Positions 357 through 13,589 of a stretch of 64,000 nt of DNA are shown here, in pieces; within the stretch, counting starts at the first letter, position 1, and every line of letters begins with the position of its first letter. The position numbers and the translations under genes were made by a program. Origin of the DNA: Candidatus Krumholzibacteriota bacterium (lineage in GTDB: Bacteria > Krumholzibacteriota > Krumholzibacteriia > Krumholzibacteriales > WJIX01); the NCBI GenBank assembly GCA_034520215.1, contig JAXHNR010000001.1, forward strand, positions 1,292,560-1,356,559, read 5' to 3'. The notes under the pieces were generated by a model that did not search any database, was not told the origin of the DNA, and was given only the letters and a program-made list of their open reading frames with translations.

Positions 357-2510
357 CTATATAAAAGTAAAGGGGGCATAACAAGCCAGAAATTTTTTGC
401 TCCCGTGACCGGCGAAATACACAGTCACTTTCAAATCCCTGTTTCTGCCTTCAACTTCCTTTATTTTTCCAACTCCAAAGGTGGGATGTTTTACGGTAAC
501 CCCTTTTCTGTACCTTCCGTACCCGGCTGATAAAACTTTTTCATTATCGACACTATTATTTGAAGTGACAGTAAGAAGAAATCTGTCACTCGCGTGTTCT
601 CTTTCAACATTGCCAATTTCATTCTTAAGTGAATCAGGAATTTCATCGAGGAATCTCGACGGCATATTATTCTGCCAGTTTCCGAATTTCATCCTCGCGG
701 AAGATGTAAAAACAAATAGAAGCTCCTTCGCCCTTGTCATCCCCACATAAAAGAGCCTTCTTTCTTCTTCGAGCTCGCCTTCTGAATCAAAACTGGAATA
801 ATGCGGAAGCAGACCTTCCTCAAGTCCGGTAATCATAACAACCCTGTACTCGAGCCCCTTAGAATTATGAAGAGTCATAAGCGACACCGTATCCTCATTC
901 TTCATCGTATCAACCGCGCTGATAAGCGCTATCTCTTCAAGAAAATTAGCGAGTGAAGATTCCTCGGCGTCAGATACAAATCTTATCGTTTCATTAAGCA
1001 ACTCCTCTATATTCTCAAGTCTCGCCTGAGCTGTCTGGGGTTCTTTGCTTAAATATTTACGGTATCGGGTTTTTGAGATGACTTCCGAAAGAACCTCATG
1101 AGCGTTGCTCTTACGCGCGCCCAGTTCAAAAGCAGCCATCATTGTTGAAAATTTCTCCAGTTTTTCCTTCTGTAACCCGCTGAATCTTTTAAGTACGTTC
1201 TTATCTCTCAAGGATGGCAGTAAATTTCCTCCGCCGCTTTCTTCTTTGAGTTTTTCCAGTGTTACTTTACCTATCCCCCTTCGCGGAAGATTGACAACAC
1301 GGAGGAAATTAACGTCATCAGCCGGATTATTTATCAATTTGAGATATCCAAGCAGGTCTTTTATTTCCCTTCTCTCGTAAAATCTCACGCCGCCAATAAT
1401 CTGATACGGCAGTCCCCCTCGGTTCATCGACTGTTCCAAGGCTCTGGATTGAGCGTTTGTTCGGTACAAGACTGCTATTTCACTCCTTTTATATCCGTTT
1501 CTTATCAGATTTATTACAGTTTCTTTCACGGCATCGGCCTCTTCCTGTTCATCGTCGGCGAAAAACACCTGCAGAGGTCTTCCTTTACCATTATTCGACC
1601 AGAGTACTTTTCCCTTTCGCTCCGCGTTATTGGCTATAACCGAGTTAGCTGCTTTAAGAATAGTGTTGGTTGATCTATAATTCTTTTCAAGGCGGATGAT
1701 TTCGGCGTTAGTATATATACTGTCGAATTGCAGTATATTTTCAACAGCCGCGCCTCTCCACCCGTAAATTGATTGATCCTCATCCCCTACTACAAAGAGA
1801 TTCTCAGAATGGGAAGAAAGCATATCTATCATTACCATCTGTATCGGATTAGTATCCTGAAATTCGTCAACCAATACATATTTGAACTGTCTGGCGTACC
1901 GCTTCTTTATCTTTGGATTAGCTGTAAAAACCTCGACTGTCTTTGTAATCAAATCGTCAAAATCAAAGGCGTTGCACCCGCGAAGTGATAAATCATAAGC
2001 CTTATAAACTTCGGCCAGCTGTTCTTCTATATAATCAGAGGCGTCTTCATAGGCCTTATCAGGAGAAATAAGCTTATTCTTCCAGTTCGATATCTTATTC
2101 CTCGCTGAAGCATAGGGATAATCATTCAATCTCCAATTACCTTCTTTGATAATCTTTTTAACCATTCTCAATGAATCGTCTTCATCATAAATGGCGAAAT
2201 TATTTTTGAACCCTATGTGCTGCGCCTCTCTCCTCAATATCCTCAATCCCGTAGCGTGAAACGTACCGATCCAGAACGACAGGCTTCTCACATCGAGCTT
2301 TTCTTCAACTCTCGTTCTCATTTCACCTGCGGCCTTGTTTGTAAATGTAAAAGCAAGTATCCGCTCCGGTGAAACATTCTTTTCTCTTATTAAATAAGCA
2401 ATTCTTTCAGTAAGAACCTTGGTTTTCCCACTTCCCGCCCCGGCAAGAACAAGTACATACCCATCACCCGAGAGAACGGCTTCCCTTTGCTGCTTGTTAA
2501 GTATGCTCAT
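357..2510 (-). CDS. pcrA: ATP-dependent DNA helicase PcrA/UvrD
   Basis: A 717-aa superfamily 1A 3'-5' DNA helicase acting in repair and removal of recombination intermediates. The N-terminus has the Q-motif region (LNKQQREAV) and Walker A GAGSGKT. Motif II is DEFQDTNPIQ, motif III is EDQSIYGWRGA, the motif IV/V region contains LMTLHNSKGLEY, and motif VI is EERRLFYVGMTRA. The C-terminus carries the PcrA-type tail (VKHPTFGVGKI, then a basic strand ending near YAPFTFI), which binds RNA polymerase in known PcrA proteins. Length is usual for the family. The gene ends in TAG at a natural family end, which shows that TAG is a working stop codon here. It lies 50 bp downstream of the peptidase/barrel gene and is probably co-transcribed with it. 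Confidence 0.95.
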   Translation of the reverse strand: MSILNKQQREAVLSGDGYVLVLAGAGSGKTKVLTERIAYLIREKNVSPERILAFTFTNKAAGEMRTRVEEKLDVRSLSFWIGTFHATGLRILRREAQHIGFKNNFAIYDEDDSLRMVKKIIKEGNWRLNDYPYASARNKISNWKNKLISPDKAYEDASDYIEEQLAEVYKAYDLSLRGCNAFDFDDLITKTVEVFTANPKIKKRYARQFKYVLVDEFQDTNPIQMVMIDMLSSHSENLFVVGDEDQSIYGWRGAAVENILQFDSIYTNAEIIRLEKNYRSTNTILKAANSVIANNAERKGKVLWSNNGKGRPLQVFFADDEQEEADAVKETVINLIRNGYKRSEIAVLYRTNAQSRALEQSMNRGGLPYQIIGGVRFYERREIKDLLGYLKLINNPADDVNFLRVVNLPRRGIGKVTLEKLKEESGGGNLLPSLRDKNVLKRFSGLQKEKLEKFSTMMAAFELGARKSNAHEVLSEVISKTRYRKYLSKEPQTAQARLENIEELLNETIRFVSDAEESSLANFLEEIALISAVDTMKNEDTVSLMTLHNSKGLEYRVVMITGLEEGLLPHYSSFDSEGELEEERRLFYVGMTRAKELLFVFTSSARMKFGNWQNNMPSRFLDEIPDSLKNEIGNVEREHASDRFLLTVTSNNSVDNEKVLSAGYGRYRKGVTVKHPTFGVGKIKEVEGRNRDLKVTVYFAGHGSKKFLACYAPFTFI

Positions 2511-2560: not shown

Positions 2561-5500
2561 TCAAAATTGGGGGCCTATATAAAAATGAAAGGATGGACTT
2601 CCAGTGGAAGAGAAATCAGTAGGCCAACCGAGCTGAAAGTTAAGAATCAACATACCTACCCTCATATATAATCCGGCTCCAAAATCACTGTAAAATTTTA
2701 AATCATTTATTTCAATGGCTTCTATTCCCGGCGGGAGTTTTTCCACATAACGGTTTTCTCCCCAGACTGAACCGGAATCAAAAAACAAAGTACCTCCGAT
2801 ATTAGTTAAAGCCCACCTGCCGGGCCAACCAAATATTATAGCATCCACCAGAGGATATCTGTATTCCAGATTGAAAAGCATCATTCTTGAACCCTGAAAC
2901 TGCAGATAATCATACCCCCGCATTGTTACAGGTCCGCCCAGGAAGAAATATCTGGCATCCCTTCCGAGACTGGTACTTCCAACAGCTCTGAAAGCAAGAT
3001 AATTCCTGTAGAATAGCGGGATGTACTTTCTGTAATCATAAAAAGCGGTTGAACGCACAAGATCGTCTGATAAGAAGGACAGAGAACGCGACAAACTAAG
3101 CATCCATCTCGAGCCGATTACGGGACCGAACGAACCATAATACGCCGTATCATGGACGAGTGAAATAGCCGGCTGAAATAATCTGCGAGAATTCTTTTTT
3201 CCTGTTGGATAGTAATAACTTCCGTAATTATCAAAGAATTCTCTTTGAGAAACATAGGCCTGCATTTCCAGATCGAGTCTTGTAAATGTTGAAAAGGGAT
3301 AACTTACCATACCGAACAGACCGTAATTCCTTTCTGAAAACATGCGGTAATCAAGAAAGGCTTCTCCCAGTGAAGTTGTCCTTGAATTCAGGTAGCTTTT
3401 AAACTGGAATATTCCAAAAGCATAATCTAATCTTTTGCGCAGATAGTAATAGGATAACATGATATCGCTGTCTTCAATCGACCTGTGAATATTGAAAGAA
3501 AGATAGAGATGATGATTTCCGAGAAGATCACTGAAAGCAACCTGATTCATCAATCCAAACCCGAACCCTGTTGAATAAAGAAGCCCCATTCCGTTACCTA
3601 TATAATCAGCTGAAAATTTCGTTTCATATGGTTGTGTTGTGCCGACCTTTTTTTTCATTCTCTCCCGGAGAACTTTTAGTGTATCCGGATCCGCGTTTTT
3701 CCCTACGTCTTCATCAATTGCAACTTCAGGAAATTTTTCTGCTGAATCGGAGGACGAAATCTCCATGCCGTTATGATCCGCTTTTTTTCCTCCCTTCAGA
3801 CTATCCGATTCAGATCTAAAGGGTTCAAACACATCTTCATTCTTTTCGGCATCGATAACGTTAATTTCTCCGGCAACATCACCATCACCAACATCAGGAA
3901 AAACTTCATTAATTCTATCTTCCACGGAGACACGAGTAGAATCACCTTCGGGCCGTGTATATCCGCTGCCGCCGGACTGAAAAACATCAACACCGCCGGT
4001 AGAATATGATTTCTTCGATTTTTCCCCGAATGAATCAATCACAAAGATATCATAACCCGCCGAATTAAAAGCTGTAAACGCCAGCCTGTCGCTTTCTGCG
4101 CTGTATGTTGGACTATCTATACCCCCCAAAACATCTGTAAACCGGTAATACTTGCCCAGCTGAACACTGCCCCTGTAAAGATTCCATATTCCGCTCTCAT
4201 TAGATGAAAAGACAACCTGCTTTCCTTCATCTATAATTACAGGGGAACTATCGTCACCCTTCGTCTTTATAATTCTTTCCTTGTTGCCTGTAGCTATATC
4301 AACGCTCCATATATCACTTCGGTGAACATCCTTTTTTACTTTTGTATTAAAATAGTCAAAGCTTACTTTTTCCTTATCTTTTCCGGATTTACTGAATTGG
4401 GGGTTCGGAACAACCCTCTCTGACTTGCAGTATACCAATCTTTTTCCGTCCGGAAACCAGGAAGGATCTTTTTCATCCCCAACATCGCTTGTTAACCTGA
4501 CTAGACAATCTTCACTGATTTTATAGAGGTAGAGGTCTGTCTGACCTAATGTTACACCAACAACAGCAATTTCGTCCCCGCGGGGAGACCAGGCCGGGCT
4601 ATAAAAGAAATCAAGAGGGATCTCTATTTTATGGGTGACCTTTCCCCCTGGAATACTCATAATAAACAACTTATCGAGACCATCCGATTTTGCCACAAAA
4701 GCAATCTTGTTACCTTCCGGATTTATAGTCAGGTTAGATCTTATTATCCTTAATGATTCAAACTCTTCTGACAACTGACCCTTTAATAAAGTCTCTTCAA
4801 TTTCACCCGTCACCGCGTTCATCAGGAATATACCGTCGAGCCCCTCGCGGTCTGAATAGTAAATAATATGTTCCCCGCCGGGGGAAATAGCCGGTTTGAT
4901 ATTTCTGTAATGATGGTTTTTTTTATGATCAGTAACCCTTCTGCCGTATTCTTCGGGTTCCATTTTATCCGCGTAGAGGGGCCAGTATTTTCTACGTATA
5001 CTTTTAGCCCATTCATGAGTCAGATCTTCTGTAGATATACCTATCGTTTCGTTAAGAGCCCTTTCAATCGACCGGGTCGAGCCAAGGCGGTTCATTATAT
5101 CTATAATTTTGCGCTTTCCGTATGTTCTGACAATGTAGTCAATTACTGACTGTCCGGCTTTATAAGCCATGTAGCCGCCAGTAAACTCGAGATTTCGAGG
5201 AAGATAATCGAAGATTGCCGCGTCACGCATAAACATCTCGCCTTCATCGTCATATCCCTTAGAATAGTATTCCGAACACCCTTCAGCGAACCAGAGAGGT
5301 ATCCGAAAAAGCATACTCCTCGAAAAAACGGAACGCAGCAGATTGCCATAGATGATATCAAATTCAAATATATGAATCAGTTCATGTACGGCAGTGTTTC
5401 TGTAATCTTCGTTTGATCCGCTAAAATGCAGCACAATACGTCCCCTGTTGGGTTCCGCGAACGCTTGAACACCTTCAGGAATCAAACTCCACGTTGTATT

Positions 5501-5848
5501 GGTCTGCTGAAAAGCTGAATGACTTCCATAAACAATAACGGGAATCCTGGACTTAATATCATGCTCAAAACTCCCGGACAAATCCCTGTATCCATCTTCG
5601 AGCATTGCTCCCGTTCGGGCCGCAAGATTCCTGTATCCTTTACTAAAATGAATGTCAAAATGAGGTGTTTTCAAAATTTGCCATTCAAACTGATCATACT
5701 GAACTTTATTTTTACCAAAACTCCATGCCTGCGCCCCCGCTTCCCCGTTAAAAAAAGAAATAGCAAGGATAAACAGAATAAAAAGGATTATCCTGTAAAA
5801 GTAATTATCACTCGTCTTATATAATCTTGGTCCTGCTTTAGAAAACAT
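2561..5848 (-). CDS. Secreted metallopeptidase-like, TolB-type propeller and Omp85-type barrel fusion protein
   Basis: A 1095-aa predicted outer-membrane protein. A signal sequence (hydrophobic core about residues 19-34, ending near AGAQA) leads into a gluzincin-like domain with HELIH at about 155-159 and a third ligand in WFAEGCSEYY (Glu about 189). Several WD40/PD40 TolB-like repeats follow (about 300-640), with signatures such as IIYYSDREGLDGIFLMN and PSWFPDGKRLVY. An acidic linker follows (about 640-730). The last 350 or so residues resemble an Omp85/BamA surface-antigen barrel, including GGPVTMRGYDYLQFQG (the RGY loop-6 motif) and a C-terminal aromatic strand ending in F. It starts 6 bp after tamB, in the tamA-tamB unit. 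Domain identities follow known families; the combined function is inferred, for example an envelope quality-control or export factor. Whether the peptidase is active cannot be seen. Confidence 0.75.
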   Translation of the reverse strand: MFSKAGPRLYKTSDNYFYRIILFILFILAISFFNGEAGAQAWSFGKNKVQYDQFEWQILKTPHFDIHFSKGYRNLAARTGAMLEDGYRDLSGSFEHDIKSRIPVIVYGSHSAFQQTNTTWSLIPEGVQAFAEPNRGRIVLHFSGSNEDYRNTAVHELIHIFEFDIIYGNLLRSVFSRSMLFRIPLWFAEGCSEYYSKGYDDEGEMFMRDAAIFDYLPRNLEFTGGYMAYKAGQSVIDYIVRTYGKRKIIDIMNRLGSTRSIERALNETIGISTEDLTHEWAKSIRRKYWPLYADKMEPEEYGRRVTDHKKNHHYRNIKPAISPGGEHIIYYSDREGLDGIFLMNAVTGEIEETLLKGQLSEEFESLRIIRSNLTINPEGNKIAFVAKSDGLDKLFIMSIPGGKVTHKIEIPLDFFYSPAWSPRGDEIAVVGVTLGQTDLYLYKISEDCLVRLTSDVGDEKDPSWFPDGKRLVYCKSERVVPNPQFSKSGKDKEKVSFDYFNTKVKKDVHRSDIWSVDIATGNKERIIKTKGDDSSPVIIDEGKQVVFSSNESGIWNLYRGSVQLGKYYRFTDVLGGIDSPTYSAESDRLAFTAFNSAGYDIFVIDSFGEKSKKSYSTGGVDVFQSGGSGYTRPEGDSTRVSVEDRINEVFPDVGDGDVAGEINVIDAEKNEDVFEPFRSESDSLKGGKKADHNGMEISSSDSAEKFPEVAIDEDVGKNADPDTLKVLRERMKKKVGTTQPYETKFSADYIGNGMGLLYSTGFGFGLMNQVAFSDLLGNHHLYLSFNIHRSIEDSDIMLSYYYLRKRLDYAFGIFQFKSYLNSRTTSLGEAFLDYRMFSERNYGLFGMVSYPFSTFTRLDLEMQAYVSQREFFDNYGSYYYPTGKKNSRRLFQPAISLVHDTAYYGSFGPVIGSRWMLSLSRSLSFLSDDLVRSTAFYDYRKYIPLFYRNYLAFRAVGSTSLGRDARYFFLGGPVTMRGYDYLQFQGSRMMLFNLEYRYPLVDAIIFGWPGRWALTNIGGTLFFDSGSVWGENRYVEKLPPGIEAIEINDLKFYSDFGAGLYMRVGMLILNFQLGWPTDFSSTGSPSFHFYIGPQF

Positions 5849-5854
5849 AGATTA

Positions 5855-8800
5855 TCAGAATTCCCACCTGACTTTAATGTCAAAATTTACTTCATCACTG
5901 TTACTTCTGCTCTCCCCAATGAATGCTCTATCTGAATGCATATATTCTGAACGTATCATAAAAAGATCGCTGATTCTATATTCTACTTCAAAATTTCGTT
6001 CGGTAAATACCGTTAATCCTTGTTTATACTTGACATATAATCCCTGTGAAAGATATTTACCTACGGCTAACATCGTTTCTTTCTCACCTGCCGTACTATG
6101 TGAATTCAAACTCTGGGTGTTTTGCTCAAGAGAAACGGTAAATCCCTCCATTTGTGAATTCAGGACATTCTCGAAATAATTGGCGGCCAGGTTTTGTGCT
6201 GTTCCAAGGGCGTCCCACTCGTCTTTGTTTCCATCCCTTGACCCTACGATTCCACCTCCCAACATCTTCCAAATATCCGTTTCACTATATCCGCTATCTT
6301 CATGATGAAGTGACAACCTGGGCTGAGGGTCATCTTCATCCCATAAAATAGTCAAATAGATCCTTTTTCCCTCAGGGTCAAGTGTCTCGGCTTCAATGTC
6401 CACAATCGGTCTGAATTGGCCGGCATTGGCAAAAACGAGAGTTCCCGAAATTATTCTGAATTTATTATTGTAAATATTATACCATCCCCGATGGAGCCGA
6501 AGTGTTCCTCTTATATACGTCCCGTTCCTGTCATGAAACAGAACAACTTCTCCGAGGAATTCAACGTTTGCATCGGGAGTGCGTATTCGCGCGTCTCCTT
6601 CTATATCAAGGTTTATTTCAGCTAACCAGGAAGGGACATTGATATTCATACCATTCCCCCCTTCTCCCATTTTAGCAAGATCATAATATAACTCAACCTT
6701 GTTAATTTTGAGATCACCCGTCAACGATGGTATTATGCTGTTTTCAATTTCTTTATTTCCTATCATCAACCTTCCGCTTACAACCGCCATAACATCTCTT
6801 ATTCCGGCAACGAGAACTTTGTCTAAGTCTATTGACACATCATAATTGACAGGTTTCCACTCCCGTAAAACAATATTCCCGGAGCAATTGAATTTACCAT
6901 TCTTGCCTTCTTTACCTCTGAGACTATTAATCTTTATCAATGTATCTTCCAGGCTTATTTGGGAATTTACATCCCAAAATCTTTCTTCCAAACCGGCCGG
7001 TCTAAATCCCGCGTTTAAGAGTGATATGCTGCCTGACAAATCCGGGTCGTTTATACTGCCTTCAACACTAAACCTCAATGAACCAACTCCGTCCGCTTCC
7101 GCCACAAGATCTGATATATCATCCACTTTATCAAGATCACAATCGGGTAATACAAGATTAAAATTAACAGGCTTTTCCTTATCAAGAGAATAGAACCACT
7201 TCTTCTTCCGCAGGGGCAAAAATCCGTCCAACTTGCCTTCCCCTGAAGGCGGCACGAATATTGTTCCGCCAAAATTAATCCGGTCTCCCCTTGCCCAGGC
7301 GTGCACATCCACCCTGGGAATAATAATGTGACGCAAAGCCAGATCATTGATCGCTCCGTCAAAATATATTTCAGGATGCGCGAGTGAATCAGTTAAAACG
7401 AGTTTTCCGGTAAAAGTTCCGTCTGAAAAGGGAACGTTGCCGAAATATTCGGCGAAGGGTTTCATCTTCAATTTTGCTGAATAGATCTCTAAGTCAACAA
7501 CAGCATGTCGGAAAGCATCAACCCCATTCTCCTTAATCTCCTTCCAGGAAGTCCCCTCTATTGTTCCGCTTGCGAACCCAAATCCGGCTGTAGTCGATAA
7601 ACTAAGCGAATCGATCTCGCAGAACCCGTCTCTGTAAGAAGCATTAACGGCAAGAGACTTTACAGTCAAGGTGTCAACTGCCCCCTCTGATAATCCCAGA
7701 TCAATCTTAACCGACGGATCGGATATGTCTCCGGTAAAAGTAAGGGCTCCACGCGCCTTACCCTCCAGCGGGACCGATATTAATCCGGAACGGTTTAAGA
7801 GTGATGCGTCCAGCCTGTCAAAACTGAATTTGCCATTCAGTGTATTTGCTGATTTGTTTAGTGTACCTCCAAAATATAAAGCACCGAGTTTCGAATGAAA
7901 CTGAAGATCGTCAAAAAGCATTGTTGAATCACCAATAACAATATCAAAATTGCCGCTGCTCATCCATTCTTCACCCAGGGTTTCAAGAAGAACATCTCTG
8001 AACGCGAATTTTGTCAGATCTCCATCTTTTATTATTTCGCCCCACATACTTGCCTTGAAATCGGATCCTCTAAGATTAAGCCTTTTTATGTTGGCCCTTC
8101 CCCCGGAATAATCAAGAGATAATTCTATTCCGGAAAACTCAAAGGGATCTATATAACAACTATCTCCTGAAAGATCCAGAAAGAGACTGTCGTGTTCAGC
8201 CCTTTTCATTGCAAGTTTAATTTGTCCATCGGGAATTAAAACATTCCTATATTCAAAATTTCTGCATTCTCCGCTTACACGCAAATCCCAGGAATCAAAA
8301 GTACCCCGCCATAATCCTCTTACATTAATTCCGGACCTGTACTGCTCAATATTGAAATAGGGAAACAGGGTGTCAGATGCTTCACATTGAACATCAACAA
8401 AGAGGTTTACTTCATCTTTCCCCGTTATGCTTCCGTGTATGTCTGCAGTATGAGTTGGCGACACCATCCGGACGTTCTTAAGAAACAGACTGTCCGCTCT
8501 ATAAATACCGTAAATATCAGCATGTTCAAAAGGGAATCTTCTAAAATGACCCTTTTTAAGCTCAAACCGGAGTTTCATTTCACCATTTGAGAAATAATAT
8601 TCAATCCCCATTTTACCGGTAAAATCAGTTTCCGGAAGGCCGATTCCGGGATAAAAACCCTTTGAAAGATCAACGTTCTCAACTTTTAAGCTGATATTTA
8701 ACATCTTCTTTGCATCAAATAAATAAACACCGTCACCTTCCACGTATGCTCCGTTAAGTCCTCCTTTAAAGTGATTGAACCTGACAGTAGAATCTTTCGC

Positions 8801-9745
8801 GGTTATATCAAAATCGAAATTCTCGAGGGCAAAACCTCCAATTATTCCACCCGTTTCCCCCTTTAAATCCAAACTATCCCCCTCTGAGCGCAGGTCAAAA
8901 ACACCGGTCAGTCTCCCTCTGGTTTCAGTTTCAAAATTAAGAGCCCGGGTTAATTCCTCAAAATCAAAGGGGGTGGCATTCACGTGTAAATTTATATTCA
9001 TAGAGCGCGGATCAAAACTTCCTTCAAACTTCAGTTTGGAGGTACCCGTGCGAACTGAATAATTTTCAAGTGATATACTGCTTCCCGTATCTCTTTTCTT
9101 TTCAGCGGGTTTCCATACTATATCTCCCTTCATTTCATTTATATTTATCTTTCTGGTAATAAAATCGCAGGAACCGTTCAGCGTATGGAGATAAACCGCT
9201 TCTTCTTCCGAGACTACAGAAGCGAGAAGATCGATATTCTTAACAGCTTCCGCTGTATTTGACCCCTGGTATATTACCTGACCATTAGAAATAAGCAGTT
9301 CTTCAACCGTAAATCTGAATAATCTGCCCAATACCTCACTCCCACCGGGAATTCTGTCAGCTTTGGCGGGGCTGGGTTTAATCCATAAATGAGGACTAAA
9401 AAAAGACAGCTTTTCCAAATTATGTTTACTTCCAAGGAGAGAAACAAGATCGAACTGACAGTAAATTTTATCTATTCTTATTACATCGTATGAGAAATCT
9501 TCACCTGCGTAACGAACGATAACATTCCGGATTGTAAGCCTGTTGAGAGGATTTCCGCTAATTTTGCCTATTTCCAGTTTATAGTCAGTCCCATGTAAAT
9601 AGTAACTACCCAGGACACCCGCCGCTCTATCGGCGAAAAAACCGGTATGCATAAAGAGCACACCAATAGTTAACGCCAGGATCACCAAGATAATCACAGA
9701 GGAAATAGAGAGAAGGATCCTTTTTTTTATTATTTTTTTAGTCAT
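5855..9745 (-). CDS. tamB: TamB-like translocation and assembly module protein (DUF490)
   Basis: A 1296-aa protein with one N-terminal membrane anchor (IIKKRILLSISSVIILVILALTIG, about residues 4-27). A very long beta-rich region of AsmA/TamB-like repeats follows, and the C-terminus is of DUF490 type (MLGGGIVGSRDG, then GLYVKYKQGLTVF and a final strand ending in WEF). Known TamB proteins span the periplasm as a hydrophobic groove. They work with the Omp85 protein TamA in outer-membrane protein insertion and/or phospholipid transport. The adjacent upstream gene encodes an Omp85 protein with 15 bp between them, which supports a TamA-TamB pair. Sequence conservation is low, as is usual for the family, so the call rests on architecture, C-terminus and context. 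Confidence 0.85.
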   Translation of the reverse strand: MTKKIIKKRILLSISSVIILVILALTIGVLFMHTGFFADRAAGVLGSYYLHGTDYKLEIGKISGNPLNRLTIRNVIVRYAGEDFSYDVIRIDKIYCQFDLVSLLGSKHNLEKLSFFSPHLWIKPSPAKADRIPGGSEVLGRLFRFTVEELLISNGQVIYQGSNTAEAVKNIDLLASVVSEEEAVYLHTLNGSCDFITRKININEMKGDIVWKPAEKKRDTGSSISLENYSVRTGTSKLKFEGSFDPRSMNINLHVNATPFDFEELTRALNFETETRGRLTGVFDLRSEGDSLDLKGETGGIIGGFALENFDFDITAKDSTVRFNHFKGGLNGAYVEGDGVYLFDAKKMLNISLKVENVDLSKGFYPGIGLPETDFTGKMGIEYYFSNGEMKLRFELKKGHFRRFPFEHADIYGIYRADSLFLKNVRMVSPTHTADIHGSITGKDEVNLFVDVQCEASDTLFPYFNIEQYRSGINVRGLWRGTFDSWDLRVSGECRNFEYRNVLIPDGQIKLAMKRAEHDSLFLDLSGDSCYIDPFEFSGIELSLDYSGGRANIKRLNLRGSDFKASMWGEIIKDGDLTKFAFRDVLLETLGEEWMSSGNFDIVIGDSTMLFDDLQFHSKLGALYFGGTLNKSANTLNGKFSFDRLDASLLNRSGLISVPLEGKARGALTFTGDISDPSVKIDLGLSEGAVDTLTVKSLAVNASYRDGFCEIDSLSLSTTAGFGFASGTIEGTSWKEIKENGVDAFRHAVVDLEIYSAKLKMKPFAEYFGNVPFSDGTFTGKLVLTDSLAHPEIYFDGAINDLALRHIIIPRVDVHAWARGDRINFGGTIFVPPSGEGKLDGFLPLRKKKWFYSLDKEKPVNFNLVLPDCDLDKVDDISDLVAEADGVGSLRFSVEGSINDPDLSGSISLLNAGFRPAGLEERFWDVNSQISLEDTLIKINSLRGKEGKNGKFNCSGNIVLREWKPVNYDVSIDLDKVLVAGIRDVMAVVSGRLMIGNKEIENSIIPSLTGDLKINKVELYYDLAKMGEGGNGMNINVPSWLAEINLDIEGDARIRTPDANVEFLGEVVLFHDRNGTYIRGTLRLHRGWYNIYNNKFRIISGTLVFANAGQFRPIVDIEAETLDPEGKRIYLTILWDEDDPQPRLSLHHEDSGYSETDIWKMLGGGIVGSRDGNKDEWDALGTAQNLAANYFENVLNSQMEGFTVSLEQNTQSLNSHSTAGEKETMLAVGKYLSQGLYVKYKQGLTVFTERNFEVEYRISDLFMIRSEYMHSDRAFIGESRSNSDEVNFDIKVRWEF

Positions 9746-9760: not shown

Positions 9761-11692
9761 TTAAAAAAGATGTCCGAGGCTTATATGAATCCAGTAGTCG
9801 GGATTAATGTAAGCTGCCTTATTAACGGGAAATCCGGCATCGACCCTTATCGGTCCGATCGGCGTATAATATCTTAATCCGAAACCGCAACTATACTTAT
9901 AATCAGATAAAGTAATTTCATGAGAATCCTTAAAAATATTGAATTTATTTAATGATAAATCTGTGATGCTATCCCAGACATTACCGCCGTCAAGAAAAAC
10001 CACCCCTCCTATATTTAAATCAGATAAACCGGGAATGTAGAATCTCAATTCAACATTTGTTAACAACAAGACCTGTCCGCCGACCGGTTCACCCCCGGCC
10101 TCAGGGCCGAGAGAATTCTCCTCATAACCTCTAACAGAATTTCCACCACCAATGAAAAACCTGCTTTCTATAGGCAGTCCACTTGAACCAGTCGATGAAA
10201 AGGGTTCAACGTATCCAGCTCTAATCCTATACGCCAAAACTGTCTCATCAAAAATAATATTATAATTCCTATAGGAAGAAATAGCGGAATAGTAATTATC
10301 ATCCCCGCCCAGAAGCCCACCGGAGTATCTCAGCTCCATATTAAAATAATTGCCCTTCTTCGGATTGAAGTAATATTTTCTCGTATCCCTTCTGTACTTT
10401 AGTTTCAGTGAACGTCTTCCCGACTCGCTCGCTTGACCCGTAACGGGATTCCTCTTTATATGCTCAAAAGCATAACTTAACAGAATTAATGTCTGACGGG
10501 AAACATTTCTGGAAATCGCGGCTGTATAACTCATTGAACTGAAAACAGCCGGTAATATCGTAGCATCATCTTCATAATATGCTCCCAGTGAGAATGTGTT
10601 CCATGTCGACAAAATATGCGGAAAACGCAGCTCACCCTCGTACCTGACATATTTTCTATCAAAAACCATATCTGAAAAATTTATTTCATTTTCCTGAAAG
10701 AGGCTAAAAGAATAGGAAGATGTCAATCTCAAACCATATCCTCTATTCAGTAAGTTTCTCTGACCCCATTCAAGAAACATATGGCTCGCGTGAACATTGC
10801 CAACTCCTATTCCTGCCTCAATATAGCCCATTTCTCTTTCGCGCACAGCCAGGTGCAAATCAACAATCCCCTCTTCAAGGTTGAGATCTTCGGGTTGAAT
10901 ATCGACAGATGAGAAACAGCCGGTATTGTACAAATTCTGTTTACTTTGCTGGATTTTCTTAAGGTCGAAATAATCGCCTGGATGTATTGTTAGTTCCCTG
11001 GATACAATCTCCGTGTCTACCTTGCTGTTTCCGGTTATACTAATAGAATCAATCTTAGCTTTTTCCCCGGTCTTTATCTTCCAGATTAGATCAACCTCTG
11101 TAGAATCGATATTAACGTCGTATGAAACACCTGTTCCCAGATACCCCTTCTGAACAAAGAGATTAAATATAGCGTACTGGTCCGTTTTAACTAAATTAGG
11201 ATTGTAAGGATGTCCCACTGTCAATTCCAGAACATCTCTAATTAAACTTTCTGAAATTACTTTGGGATCCTCGATTTCAAGACTTCTGATTCTGGTGCGC
11301 TCCCCTTCATCGATGATAATCTTTATTATAACAGAGTTGCTTTTCTCATCTCTAACCAGTGAACTGAGATTTACTTCAGTCTTGAAAAAGCCTTTCTTTT
11401 TGTAAAAGGACTTAATTCTTTCCAGATCCCGTATCAGGAAGTCTTTTCTGTATCTTGGTTTATTAAAGAAACTTATAAACCCCTTTTCTTTTGTCTGCAT
11501 TTTACTTTTAAGAGTTTTATCATCGAACGTGCGGTTTCCAAGTATAATAATCCGATCTACAACCGGCAGTTCATCATCAAACCCTTCAGCTAAAACATTA
11601 GAGAAGAAACAGACTTCTCCCGAGAAGATTATAAAACTGAGAATGGCTGTTGACAGCGCTTTCCTGATTTTATATAGCATTGAGATTGACAT
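9761..11692 (-). CDS. tamA: Omp85 family outer-membrane assembly protein (TamA/BamA-like)
   Basis: A 643-aa outer-membrane protein taken from ATG 11692. A longer frame to 11794 exists, but its extra residues precede a clear signal sequence (KIRKALSTAILSFIIFSGEV), and that region holds the start of the divergent lipoprotein gene. After the signal come POTRA-type modules (IDRIIILGNRTFDDKTL; the following module near IRSLEIEDPKVISESLI; KIDSISITGNSKVDTEIVS). A C-terminal 16-strand-type barrel follows, with the loop-6 signature GGGNSVRGYEENSLG and a last strand ending in F. The few POTRA domains and the adjacency to tamB favour TamA. With no other copy visible, BamA remains possible. A TTGACG sequence at 11764-11769 is a candidate -35, but a matching -10 is unclear. 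Confidence 0.85.
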   Translation of the reverse strand: MSISMLYKIRKALSTAILSFIIFSGEVCFFSNVLAEGFDDELPVVDRIIILGNRTFDDKTLKSKMQTKEKGFISFFNKPRYRKDFLIRDLERIKSFYKKKGFFKTEVNLSSLVRDEKSNSVIIKIIIDEGERTRIRSLEIEDPKVISESLIRDVLELTVGHPYNPNLVKTDQYAIFNLFVQKGYLGTGVSYDVNIDSTEVDLIWKIKTGEKAKIDSISITGNSKVDTEIVSRELTIHPGDYFDLKKIQQSKQNLYNTGCFSSVDIQPEDLNLEEGIVDLHLAVREREMGYIEAGIGVGNVHASHMFLEWGQRNLLNRGYGLRLTSSYSFSLFQENEINFSDMVFDRKYVRYEGELRFPHILSTWNTFSLGAYYEDDATILPAVFSSMSYTAAISRNVSRQTLILLSYAFEHIKRNPVTGQASESGRRSLKLKYRRDTRKYYFNPKKGNYFNMELRYSGGLLGGDDNYYSAISSYRNYNIIFDETVLAYRIRAGYVEPFSSTGSSGLPIESRFFIGGGNSVRGYEENSLGPEAGGEPVGGQVLLLTNVELRFYIPGLSDLNIGGVVFLDGGNVWDSITDLSLNKFNIFKDSHEITLSDYKYSCGFGLRYYTPIGPIRVDAGFPVNKAAYINPDYWIHISLGHLF

Positions 11693-11792
11693 TCTTTTAT
11701 TCCGGTAGTAACATTTCTGATAGATGAAGAATAAACAATTGAATAATATGAATAATAATGCCTCGTCAAACAAATCATACCGTGAATCAAGC

Positions 11793-12146
11793 ATGTTTTT
11801 TCAACTGTATGGAAAGCGTAAACCTACCCTGATCTTTCTTACAATTATCTTTATGCTAACCATATGCTGTTCAGAAAAAACAAACACCGATAAAGAAATA
11901 ACACGAACTCTTACTTCAGGCGAACGCTATCTCGTTCAGACATATATTAAAATACATAAATTTGAAAGAAATCTCCAAAACAATCCCGAAGAACTGACAA
12001 AAAAACTGAATGAAATAAAAGAAGACACAGATTATAAAAGAATAGAGCTGGTGATATCGAAACTTGAAAAAGAGCCGATAAGGTGGCTCGCGATCTACAA
12101 TAGAATAAACATATTGCTGACAAGAGACTCAAAAAACCCGGAATAA
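11793..12146 (+). CDS. Small putative lipoprotein, unknown function
   Basis: One of only two credible plus-strand genes in the window. From ATG 11793 it encodes 117 aa. A basic N-terminus and hydrophobic core (TLIFLTIIFMLTICC) end at Cys residues that could serve as a lipoprotein lipidation site, although the box is not canonical (Ile before Cys). The remainder is charged and helix-prone, with many Lys, Glu and Asn residues, and matches no family I recognise. An in-frame ATG at 11724 would lengthen it but would place hydrophilic residues before the signal. No convincing Shine-Dalgarno sequence precedes either start. It diverges from the tamA-like gene and converges on rseP, with 63 bp between the stops. 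Coding status is inferred from the signal and composition. Confidence 0.55.
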   Translation: MFFQLYGKRKPTLIFLTIIFMLTICCSEKTNTDKEITRTLTSGERYLVQTYIKIHKFERNLQNNPEELTKKLNEIKEDTDYKRIELVISKLEKEPIRWLAIYNRINILLTRDSKNPE

Positions 12147-12209
12147 TTAGCCCTGATTGTTTAAAATCTCCCTCAAATCAACGCAGAGAAACTACTGAAT
12201 CATCACAAT

Positions 12210-13589
12210 TTAATTGAACACATTGAAAAGATCCATAGCAGTTATCAAAACCATTAATATAATAAGAATTACAAAACCTGCCTGCATCATCACATTTTTT
12301 ACCTTCGGATTAACGGGTCTGCCCGATACTAATTCAACCAGATAGAGCACAAAATGCCCTCCGTCAAACGGTAAAATAGGAAGGAGATTGAATATAGCAA
12401 GATTCAAGGAAAAGAAAGCAATAAAGAGAGACAGGCGCCCAAAACCCCATCTGGCCATATCACCGGCCATTTGCCCAATTCGAATCGGTCCTCCAAGGGC
12501 TTTCATAGACGCGTTTCCGGTTACAAGTTTTTTAAGAAACCCTAAAATAGCAACGGTCATCCTTCCATAGGCGCCGGAGCCCCTTACAACAGCATTAAAA
12601 AAGGATATTTCACGCACTTCATAGTATTGCCCAATCCCGATACCGCCCGCTTCAATAACTTCCAGTTTTTCTCCACTCCCCTTGGGAATATCAATTGACT
12701 CGGGGATAATAACAGCGGATTGTTTTGCACCACTCTGAATCCATACAAATTCGAGCTTCCGGCCGAGGCTATTGTGTATTTTATCTGTAAGATCAGTAAA
12801 TGAAATTATTGACGTATCATTGATTGTCTGTATATACGCCCCGGGTCTTATACCTGCTTCCCACGCGGGGCTGTCGCGCTTTACATCTCCAATTTTAGGC
12901 GGGAATCGCAGATAATACGACAGTCCCAATCTGTATTCGCCGGTTTCCCCGTTAAACTCCGGTGTTACATCTATAGAAAGAGTATCGCCTCTTCTTAGAA
13001 CTTTAAATACCATCTTATTGTCTTTATTGTTTTTAACCAAATAAGACAAATCAGTACCGGCCCTGAAATCTTCACCGTCTACTTCAAGGATTCTGTCTCC
13101 TCTTTCGAAGCCCGCTATCATAGCGGGGGAATTCTCTTTTACATCTCCCACTATCCCAACCCTATTTTCTATAGGAACTCCCTGAGCCCAAACACTTCCG
13201 ATATAAATAAGGAGCCCCAGCAGAGCGTTCATAAGCGGCCCGGCGACGACTATCTGCATTTTCTGAAAGGGTGATTTTGCTCTGAATGTGCGTTCTTCAG
13301 GAACATCATATTCTATATCCGCCTCTTTTGATTCTCCGCCGTATTCCTTCTCATCATTTTCATCTTCCTCGTCATTTTCACCGGCAAACTTGCAATAACC
13401 TCCGAATGGTATAACAGAAATGGCATACTCTGTTTCACCCCATCTTTTCTTAAGCAGTTTTGGCCCAAATCCAAGAGAAAAAGTAACGACATATACATTA
13501 TTAAGCTTTGCCACAATAAAATGTCCAAACTCATGTATGAACACAACCACACTCAGTACAAATAAGAACGCCACGATTGTAAGAAACAT
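12210..13589 (-). CDS. rseP: RseP-type site-2 zinc metalloprotease
   Basis: A 459-aa intramembrane protease that cleaves membrane-anchored anti-sigma factors or signal-peptide remnants. The first membrane helix carries HEFGH (about residues 19-23). Two PDZ domains occupy the middle (VKENSPAMIAGFERGDRI and VKRDSPAWEAGIRPGAYI). The C-terminal membrane region has NLLPILPFDGGH, which supplies the third zinc ligand. GGPIRIGQMAG precedes it, as usual. A notable feature is a strongly acidic stretch of roughly 30 residues (near GENDEEDENDEKEYGGESKE) between the first helix and the PDZ domains. It is last in the rplM-to-rseP run, 10 bp after dxr, the common dxr-rseP arrangement. Confidence 0.95.
   Translation of the reverse strand: MFLTIVAFLFVLSVVVFIHEFGHFIVAKLNNVYVVTFSLGFGPKLLKKRWGETEYAISVIPFGGYCKFAGENDEEDENDEKEYGGESKEADIEYDVPEERTFRAKSPFQKMQIVVAGPLMNALLGLLIYIGSVWAQGVPIENRVGIVGDVKENSPAMIAGFERGDRILEVDGEDFRAGTDLSYLVKNNKDNKMVFKVLRRGDTLSIDVTPEFNGETGEYRLGLSYYLRFPPKIGDVKRDSPAWEAGIRPGAYIQTINDTSIISFTDLTDKIHNSLGRKLEFVWIQSGAKQSAVIIPESIDIPKGSGEKLEVIEAGGIGIGQYYEVREISFFNAVVRGSGAYGRMTVAILGFLKKLVTGNASMKALGGPIRIGQMAGDMARWGFGRLSLFIAFFSLNLAIFNLLPILPFDGGHFVLYLVELVSGRPVNPKVKNVMMQAGFVILIILMVLITAMDLFNVFN

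Follow-up and report, generated by a model that had tools for sequence, protein, structure and literature searches.

Genes and features of the locus

The window, a 64,000-nucleotide stretch from a Candidatus Krumholzibacteriota bacterium, carries a gene for a 1095-amino-acid (aa) protein in which a gluzincin-type metallopeptidase domain, a TolB-like beta-propeller and an Omp85-type barrel follow one another. The plus strand of positions 2561..5848 is riddled with stop codons, and the 1095-aa open reading frame (ORF) reads on the minus strand only. On that strand the genes are ordered tsf, pyrH, frr, uppS, cdsA, dxr, rseP, an Omp85 gene with POTRA domains, tamB, the peptidase-barrel gene and uvrD. 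Only 6 bases separate tamB from the peptidase-barrel gene, and 50 bases separate the latter from uvrD; the largest gap in the cluster is the 415 bases between rseP and the Omp85 gene (11795-12209). The features are as follows.

357..2510, minus strand: uvrD/pcrA, downstream neighbour conserved in the phylum (profile match; synteny)
2561..5848, minus strand: whole gene of the 1095-aa peptidase-propeller-Omp85 protein (ORF calling, Pfam, AlphaFold2)
2564..3628, minus strand: 16-strand Omp85-type barrel, residues 741-1095 (DSSP strands 745-1092, PF01103, Foldseek to BamA barrels)
2912..2920, minus strand: RGY of Omp85 loop 6, residues 977-979 (R977 and G978 invariant in two alignments of relatives)
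3629..4033, minus strand: linker, residues 606-740, of which 616-704 are disordered and acidic (pLDDT about 30 over 616-704; composition)
4034..4912, minus strand: TolB-like beta-propeller, residues 313-605, 24 predicted strands (PD40, phmmer against PDB, Foldseek to TolB)
4949..5719, minus strand: gluzincin-type metallopeptidase domain, residues 44-300 (Peptidase_MA_2, AlphaFold2 domain model, Foldseek)
5270..5296, minus strand: LWFAEGCSE, residues 185-193, with the predicted third zinc ligand E189 (W186, E189, G190 and E193 invariant)
5372..5386, minus strand: zinc-binding/catalytic motif HELIH, residues 155-159 (H155, E156 and H159 invariant among 33 syntenic relatives and in the 77-sequence domain alignment; inside helix 146-171)
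5732..5848, minus strand: predicted signal peptide, residues about 1-39, ending at the junction of AGA and QAW (sequence; N-terminal helix 15-31 in the model)
5855..9745, minus strand: tamB, 6 bases upstream of the peptidase-barrel gene (PF04357, 107.6 bits)
9761..11794, minus strand: POTRA-bearing Omp85 protein, BamA-like, occupying the position of TamA (PF01103, three POTRA matches, TIGR03303)
12210..13589, minus strand: rseP, conserved upstream neighbour of the cluster (Peptidase_M50 and PDZ; synteny)

Domain structure of the protein

The AlphaFold2 model of the 1095-aa protein, computed with 46 relatives (pLDDT 83.5, pTM 0.82), consists of an alpha/beta domain at residues of about 44-300, a propeller of 24 strands at residues 315-605, a disordered stretch at residues 616-704 and 16 barrel strands at residues 745-1092, counted by eye from the strand assignment. 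When the whole model was compared with known structures using Foldseek, TolB was retrieved first, followed by BamA barrels. Profile searches of the whole protein against Pfam matched Peptidase_MA_2 at residues 100-284 (35.5 bits; cut-off 32.4) and PD40 three times, and residues 376-552 matched TolB among PDB chains in a phmmer search (E-value of about 1e-9). Whole-protein hmmscan did not detect the Omp85 barrel, which was recovered in the profile search of the genome, where PF01103 scored 39 bits (cut-off 24).

The barrel and the RG[FY] motif of loop 6 are features of the Omp85 superfamily, and the protein has both: RGY is present in most of the aligned rows of relatives, with R977 and G978 invariant. 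POTRA domains are typical of Omp85 proteins but are not required of the WD40-Omp85 class discussed below. Here, no profile matched a POTRA, and the model has nothing like one between propeller and barrel. The disordered part of the linker (89 residues) has 21 aspartates and glutamates versus 8 lysines and arginines. From the N-terminal residues, we infer that signal peptidase I would cut the protein between AGA and QAW.

Modelled alone from 77 sequences, the peptidase domain reached an AlphaFold2 pLDDT of 92. The top Foldseek matches of this model were the peptidase domains of M9 collagenases, followed by M1 aminopeptidases, all of which are gluzincins (best E-value of 3.6e-5; TM-scores to collagenases of 0.53-0.61), and a profile search of the domain against PDB sequences also placed collagenases first, with a weak match (E-value of 0.03). 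The two motifs are on separate predicted helices (HELIH on 146-171, the E189 segment on 185-197). As modelled, the domain has the gluzincin (clan MA) fold, with HExxH and, on a second helix, the accompanying glutamate. M9 collagenases and M1 aminopeptidases share with it the fold, HExxH and an EG.AEY-type glutamate helix, but identity is only 8-17 per cent among the listed fold matches, the TM-score is at most 0.61, and the collagenase accessory domains are absent.

The original prediction had described an ORF with HELIH, WFAEGCSEYY, PD40/TolB repeats, an acidic linker and a barrel with RGY. All of these elements were found (Pfam, AlphaFold2 and Foldseek), on the minus strand, which the prediction had left unmentioned. 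Two of the checks that it had proposed came out in its favour: structure prediction yielded both a barrel and a gluzincin fold (AlphaFold2 and Foldseek), and the linkage to tamB was seen again in relatives.

Conservation of the active site and its loss in one clade

The segment WFAEGCSEYY lies downstream of HELIH, and 29 residues separate H159 from E189. Seven residues (H155, E156, H159, W186, E189, G190 and E193) do not vary among 33 syntenic relatives, nor do they in the 77-sequence alignment of the domain, which spans two phyla and identities of 28-81 per cent. The invariance of H155, E156, H159 and E189 in both alignments rules out that HELIH is a chance motif. The active site is intact in all 52 distinct sequences from the phylum Krumholzibacteriota in which it is readable, in the 30 best Bacteroidota matches, and in all 40 members of another Bacteroidota set, which partly overlaps with these matches.

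One Bacteroidota clade of 21 sequences has lost HExxH and the third glutamate completely, and has kept the length, W186 and the remaining architecture. Judging from these sequences, its members are natural pseudo-peptidases without tamB linkage, as neither tamB nor RNase R was found near their genes in any of 20 loci. On the tree the loss is a single event (support 100), although the clade is on a long branch and its exact place is uncertain. Several of its genes are located near MBL-fold-like and PorU/PorV-like genes, which were named by reading their N-termini.

Because this clade keeps the protein with a destroyed active site, catalysis is not the only possible role. The protein may instead be mainly a structural assembly factor, in which barrel and propeller act like a fusion of BamA and BamB and the peptidase domain serves for binding and is catalytic in some cases only. 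The retention of W186 and of the remaining architecture in a whole clade without HExxH and the glutamate agrees with such a role, as does the interpretation given to the propeller-barrel class in PMC4104836. However, pure binding would not need four catalytic residues that are otherwise invariant across two phyla and in paralogues unlinked to tamB, and the active site was lost once, together with a change of neighbourhood. We consider a mainly structural role unlikely, while treating it as a serious alternative to that of a working peptidase.

Distribution and linkage to tamB

A strong relative is present in 54 of 80 genomes of the same phylum. Every one of the 80 has some match, which in 26 genomes, all of family f5, is at the level of the propeller only. 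In the Bacteroidota sample, matches with an E-value below 1e-60 turned up in 134 of 198 genomes (these presence counts, like those for the own phylum, were tallied by hand from search listings). With relatives across both phyla, the protein is not unique to this genome, and the three domains, which the original prediction had considered normally separate, are widely combined in this part of the tree.

Within the phylum, tamB is immediately upstream and on the same strand in 26 distinct proteins, the window copy included, and in most of these the Omp85 gene and uvrD flank the pair (rseP-[bamA/tamA-like]-tamB-gene-uvrD). These 26 copies form one clade (support 100) with invariant catalytic residues; ten other relatives from the phylum with enough flanking sequence are without tamB. 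In Bacteroidota, 30 of the 54 distinct loci whose flanks were long enough show the order tamB-RNase R-gene, in a sample of the strongest and some spread matches that is not a census. The linkage of the peptidase-barrel gene to tamB is real and old.

As to the Omp85 neighbour, its adjacency to rseP suggested that it could be the main BamA of the genome. That candidate was rejected: a five-POTRA BamA (481 bits) lies elsewhere, in front of skp-lpxD-lpxC-lpxA, and the neighbour is therefore a BamA-like paralogue at the place where TamA would be expected. With NCBIfam models it scores 334 bits for BamA (TIGR03303; cut-off 297) and is far under the cut-offs for TamA (120; cut-off 625) and TamL (121; cut-off 400). 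The tamA-tamB run of the original prediction was thus right about tamB, which recurs beside the gene in relatives from both phyla, and wrong about tamA.

Away from tamB there are paralogues of about 940-1060 aa whose active sites are intact, and their linkers between propeller and barrel are often much shorter (median of 41 versus 130 residues). In family f5, tamB is directly followed by uvrD, with no peptidase-barrel gene between them, in 10 of 11 genomes checked; in the eleventh, the contig ends at that place. From the cluster rseP-Omp85-tamB-uvrD of this family the peptidase-barrel gene alone is missing, a clean natural absence. Since ten genomes keep the cluster without it, the gene is an optional module, and TamB does not need its product.

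Proximity is weak evidence of partnership, because the cluster also holds the housekeeping genes rseP, uvrD and RNase R. These neighbours also fit a protease that processes or cleans up in the periplasm or outer membrane and is functionally unconnected with the translocation and assembly module (TAM), its gene order reflecting a large housekeeping cluster, and the intact-site paralogues away from tamB and the dispensability of the gene in family f5 point in the same direction. On the other hand, tamB recurs in two phyla while the other neighbours change (uvrD versus RNase R), and in the window just 6 bases lie between the two genes. We regard a protease with no tie to TAM as quite improbable and favour a partnership with TamB, supported by a linkage that is seen in two phyla although the genes in between differ.

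Relationship to known proteins

The WD40-Omp85 class was named in 2014 by Heinz and Lithgow for proteins with a TolB-like propeller and a barrel, which the main text of their paper likens to a fusion of BamA and BamB (PMC4104836). The 1095-aa protein has the layout given there, an N-terminal TolB-like propeller followed by an Omp85 barrel without POTRA, and that main text mentions no peptidase, zinc or HExxH for the class (PMC4104836). Omp85 classes including WD40-Omp85 were still listed as uncharacterised in 2024 (PMC11116518).

The propeller matches TolB by sequence and by fold, but the protein scores 109.2 bits against the NCBIfam TolB equivalog, for which the cut-off is 343. The genome encodes a separate TolB-like protein of 419 aa (257 bits, itself under that cut-off). 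BepA belongs to peptidase family M48, and Pfam gave no Peptidase_M48 match in the 1095-aa protein; the M48 match of the genome is another ORF, of 277 aa. Replacement of TolB or BepA by the 1095-aa protein was considered and rejected, given the separate TolB-like protein and M48 peptidase. Its gluzincin domain is also distinct from PF00149, which we take to be the metallophosphoesterase family. In the main text of PMC4104836, PF00149 defines the 'Metallo' Omp85 subfamily, from which the 1095-aa protein differs in this respect.

Periplasmic zinc peptidase BepA promotes or degrades LptD at BAM (PMC8423444). It resembles the 1095-aa protein, for which we likewise propose a zinc peptidase working at a machine for outer-membrane assembly, but it is a separate protein with no architecture in common. 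The gene clusters described here resemble TAM (TamA-TamB) and TamL-TamB in combining tamB with an Omp85 partner, and differ in a third Omp85-type protein, without POTRA and without an NCBIfam match to TamA, that descriptions of TAM do not include. In Bacteroidota, TamL and TamB are important for homeostasis of the outer membrane (PMC12045153). That paper does not mention TolB, and 'signal peptidase' is its sole peptidase term; the paper on the Flavobacterium johnsoniae BAM mentions no peptidase, propeller or TolB. We found no description of a gluzincin fused to a propeller and an Omp85 barrel in the open-licence literature. As far as we searched, there appears to be no earlier report of the peptidase half, of the linkage to tamB or of the clade of pseudo-enzymes, whereas the propeller-barrel half has been known since 2014. 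The neglected WD40-Omp85 class thereby gains an unreported enzyme domain.

Proposed function

Proteolysis and the assembly of outer-membrane proteins are known to be coupled, but the two activities reside in different proteins, for example BepA and BAM. Here one widespread protein joins a peptidase and an assembly-type barrel, beside tamB in two phyla. Because this protein is found in many bacteria, frequently next to tamB, it is probably an outer-membrane assembly or quality-control protease, so far uncharacterised. More specifically, we propose that it is exported, belongs to the WD40-Omp85 proteins of the outer membrane and has an active-looking gluzincin that edits or clears substrates at a TAM-like machine, a proposal that we judge to have an even chance of being correct.

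A barrel with an even number of strands has both ends in the periplasm. The barrel would sit in the outer membrane in this orientation, and because both of its ends would be periplasmic, the peptidase and propeller would be held in the periplasm by a flexible, acidic linker of about 135 residues. Docking of substrates or partners may fall to the propeller, and the peptidase may clip or remove faulty intermediates of outer-membrane proteins, or mature some of them. The site of action would be a TAM-like machine formed by TamB and its BamA/TamA-like Omp85 partner, and the mode could be like that of BepA on BAM, but built into an Omp85 protein that serves as an optional module of the machine.

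The placement of the enzyme domain also has a parallel in PlpD, in which the enzyme domain precedes an Omp85 barrel and is periplasmic (PMC11116518), although PlpD is a patatin lipase that has a POTRA and forms homodimers, whereas the 1095-aa protein carries a peptidase and a propeller and has no POTRA. A self-secreted surface protease, with the barrel carrying the peptidase and propeller across the outer membrane as was once proposed for PlpD, would account for the N-terminal enzyme domain and the long flexible linker. We consider it very unlikely: about 560 residues of folded propeller and peptidase would need to get through the pore, translocating TpsB proteins have the POTRA that is lacking here, and the PlpD enzyme domain itself proved to be periplasmic (PMC11116518).

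The original prediction, in which a peptidase-coupled factor for insertion or quality control would perhaps work with TamAB, survives, on architecture and gene order, as the leading hypothesis, qualified by the absences, the dead-site clade, the BamA-like neighbour and the wide occurrence of a combination whose propeller-barrel half was published in 2014. A bolder version, which we advance tentatively and lean against, is that the protein could be a third TAM component conserved in Bacteroidota and Krumholzibacteriota, with a peptidase that turned into a pseudo-enzyme in one lineage as the protein became separated from the tamB cluster. Because natural knockouts and active-site-dead versions both exist, the role of TAM outside Proteobacteria is directly testable.

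The genome has a second pair of tamB and a BamA-like Omp85 gene, in the order tamB then Omp85 (C2:700500-714500). It has eight Omp85 (PF01103) loci overall, among them C1:1066546, C2:411398, C1:336413 and C1:1474503, and the set includes a 521-aa protein without a POTRA match and a 749-aa protein that looks patatin-like (PlpD-like) from its N-terminal sequence.
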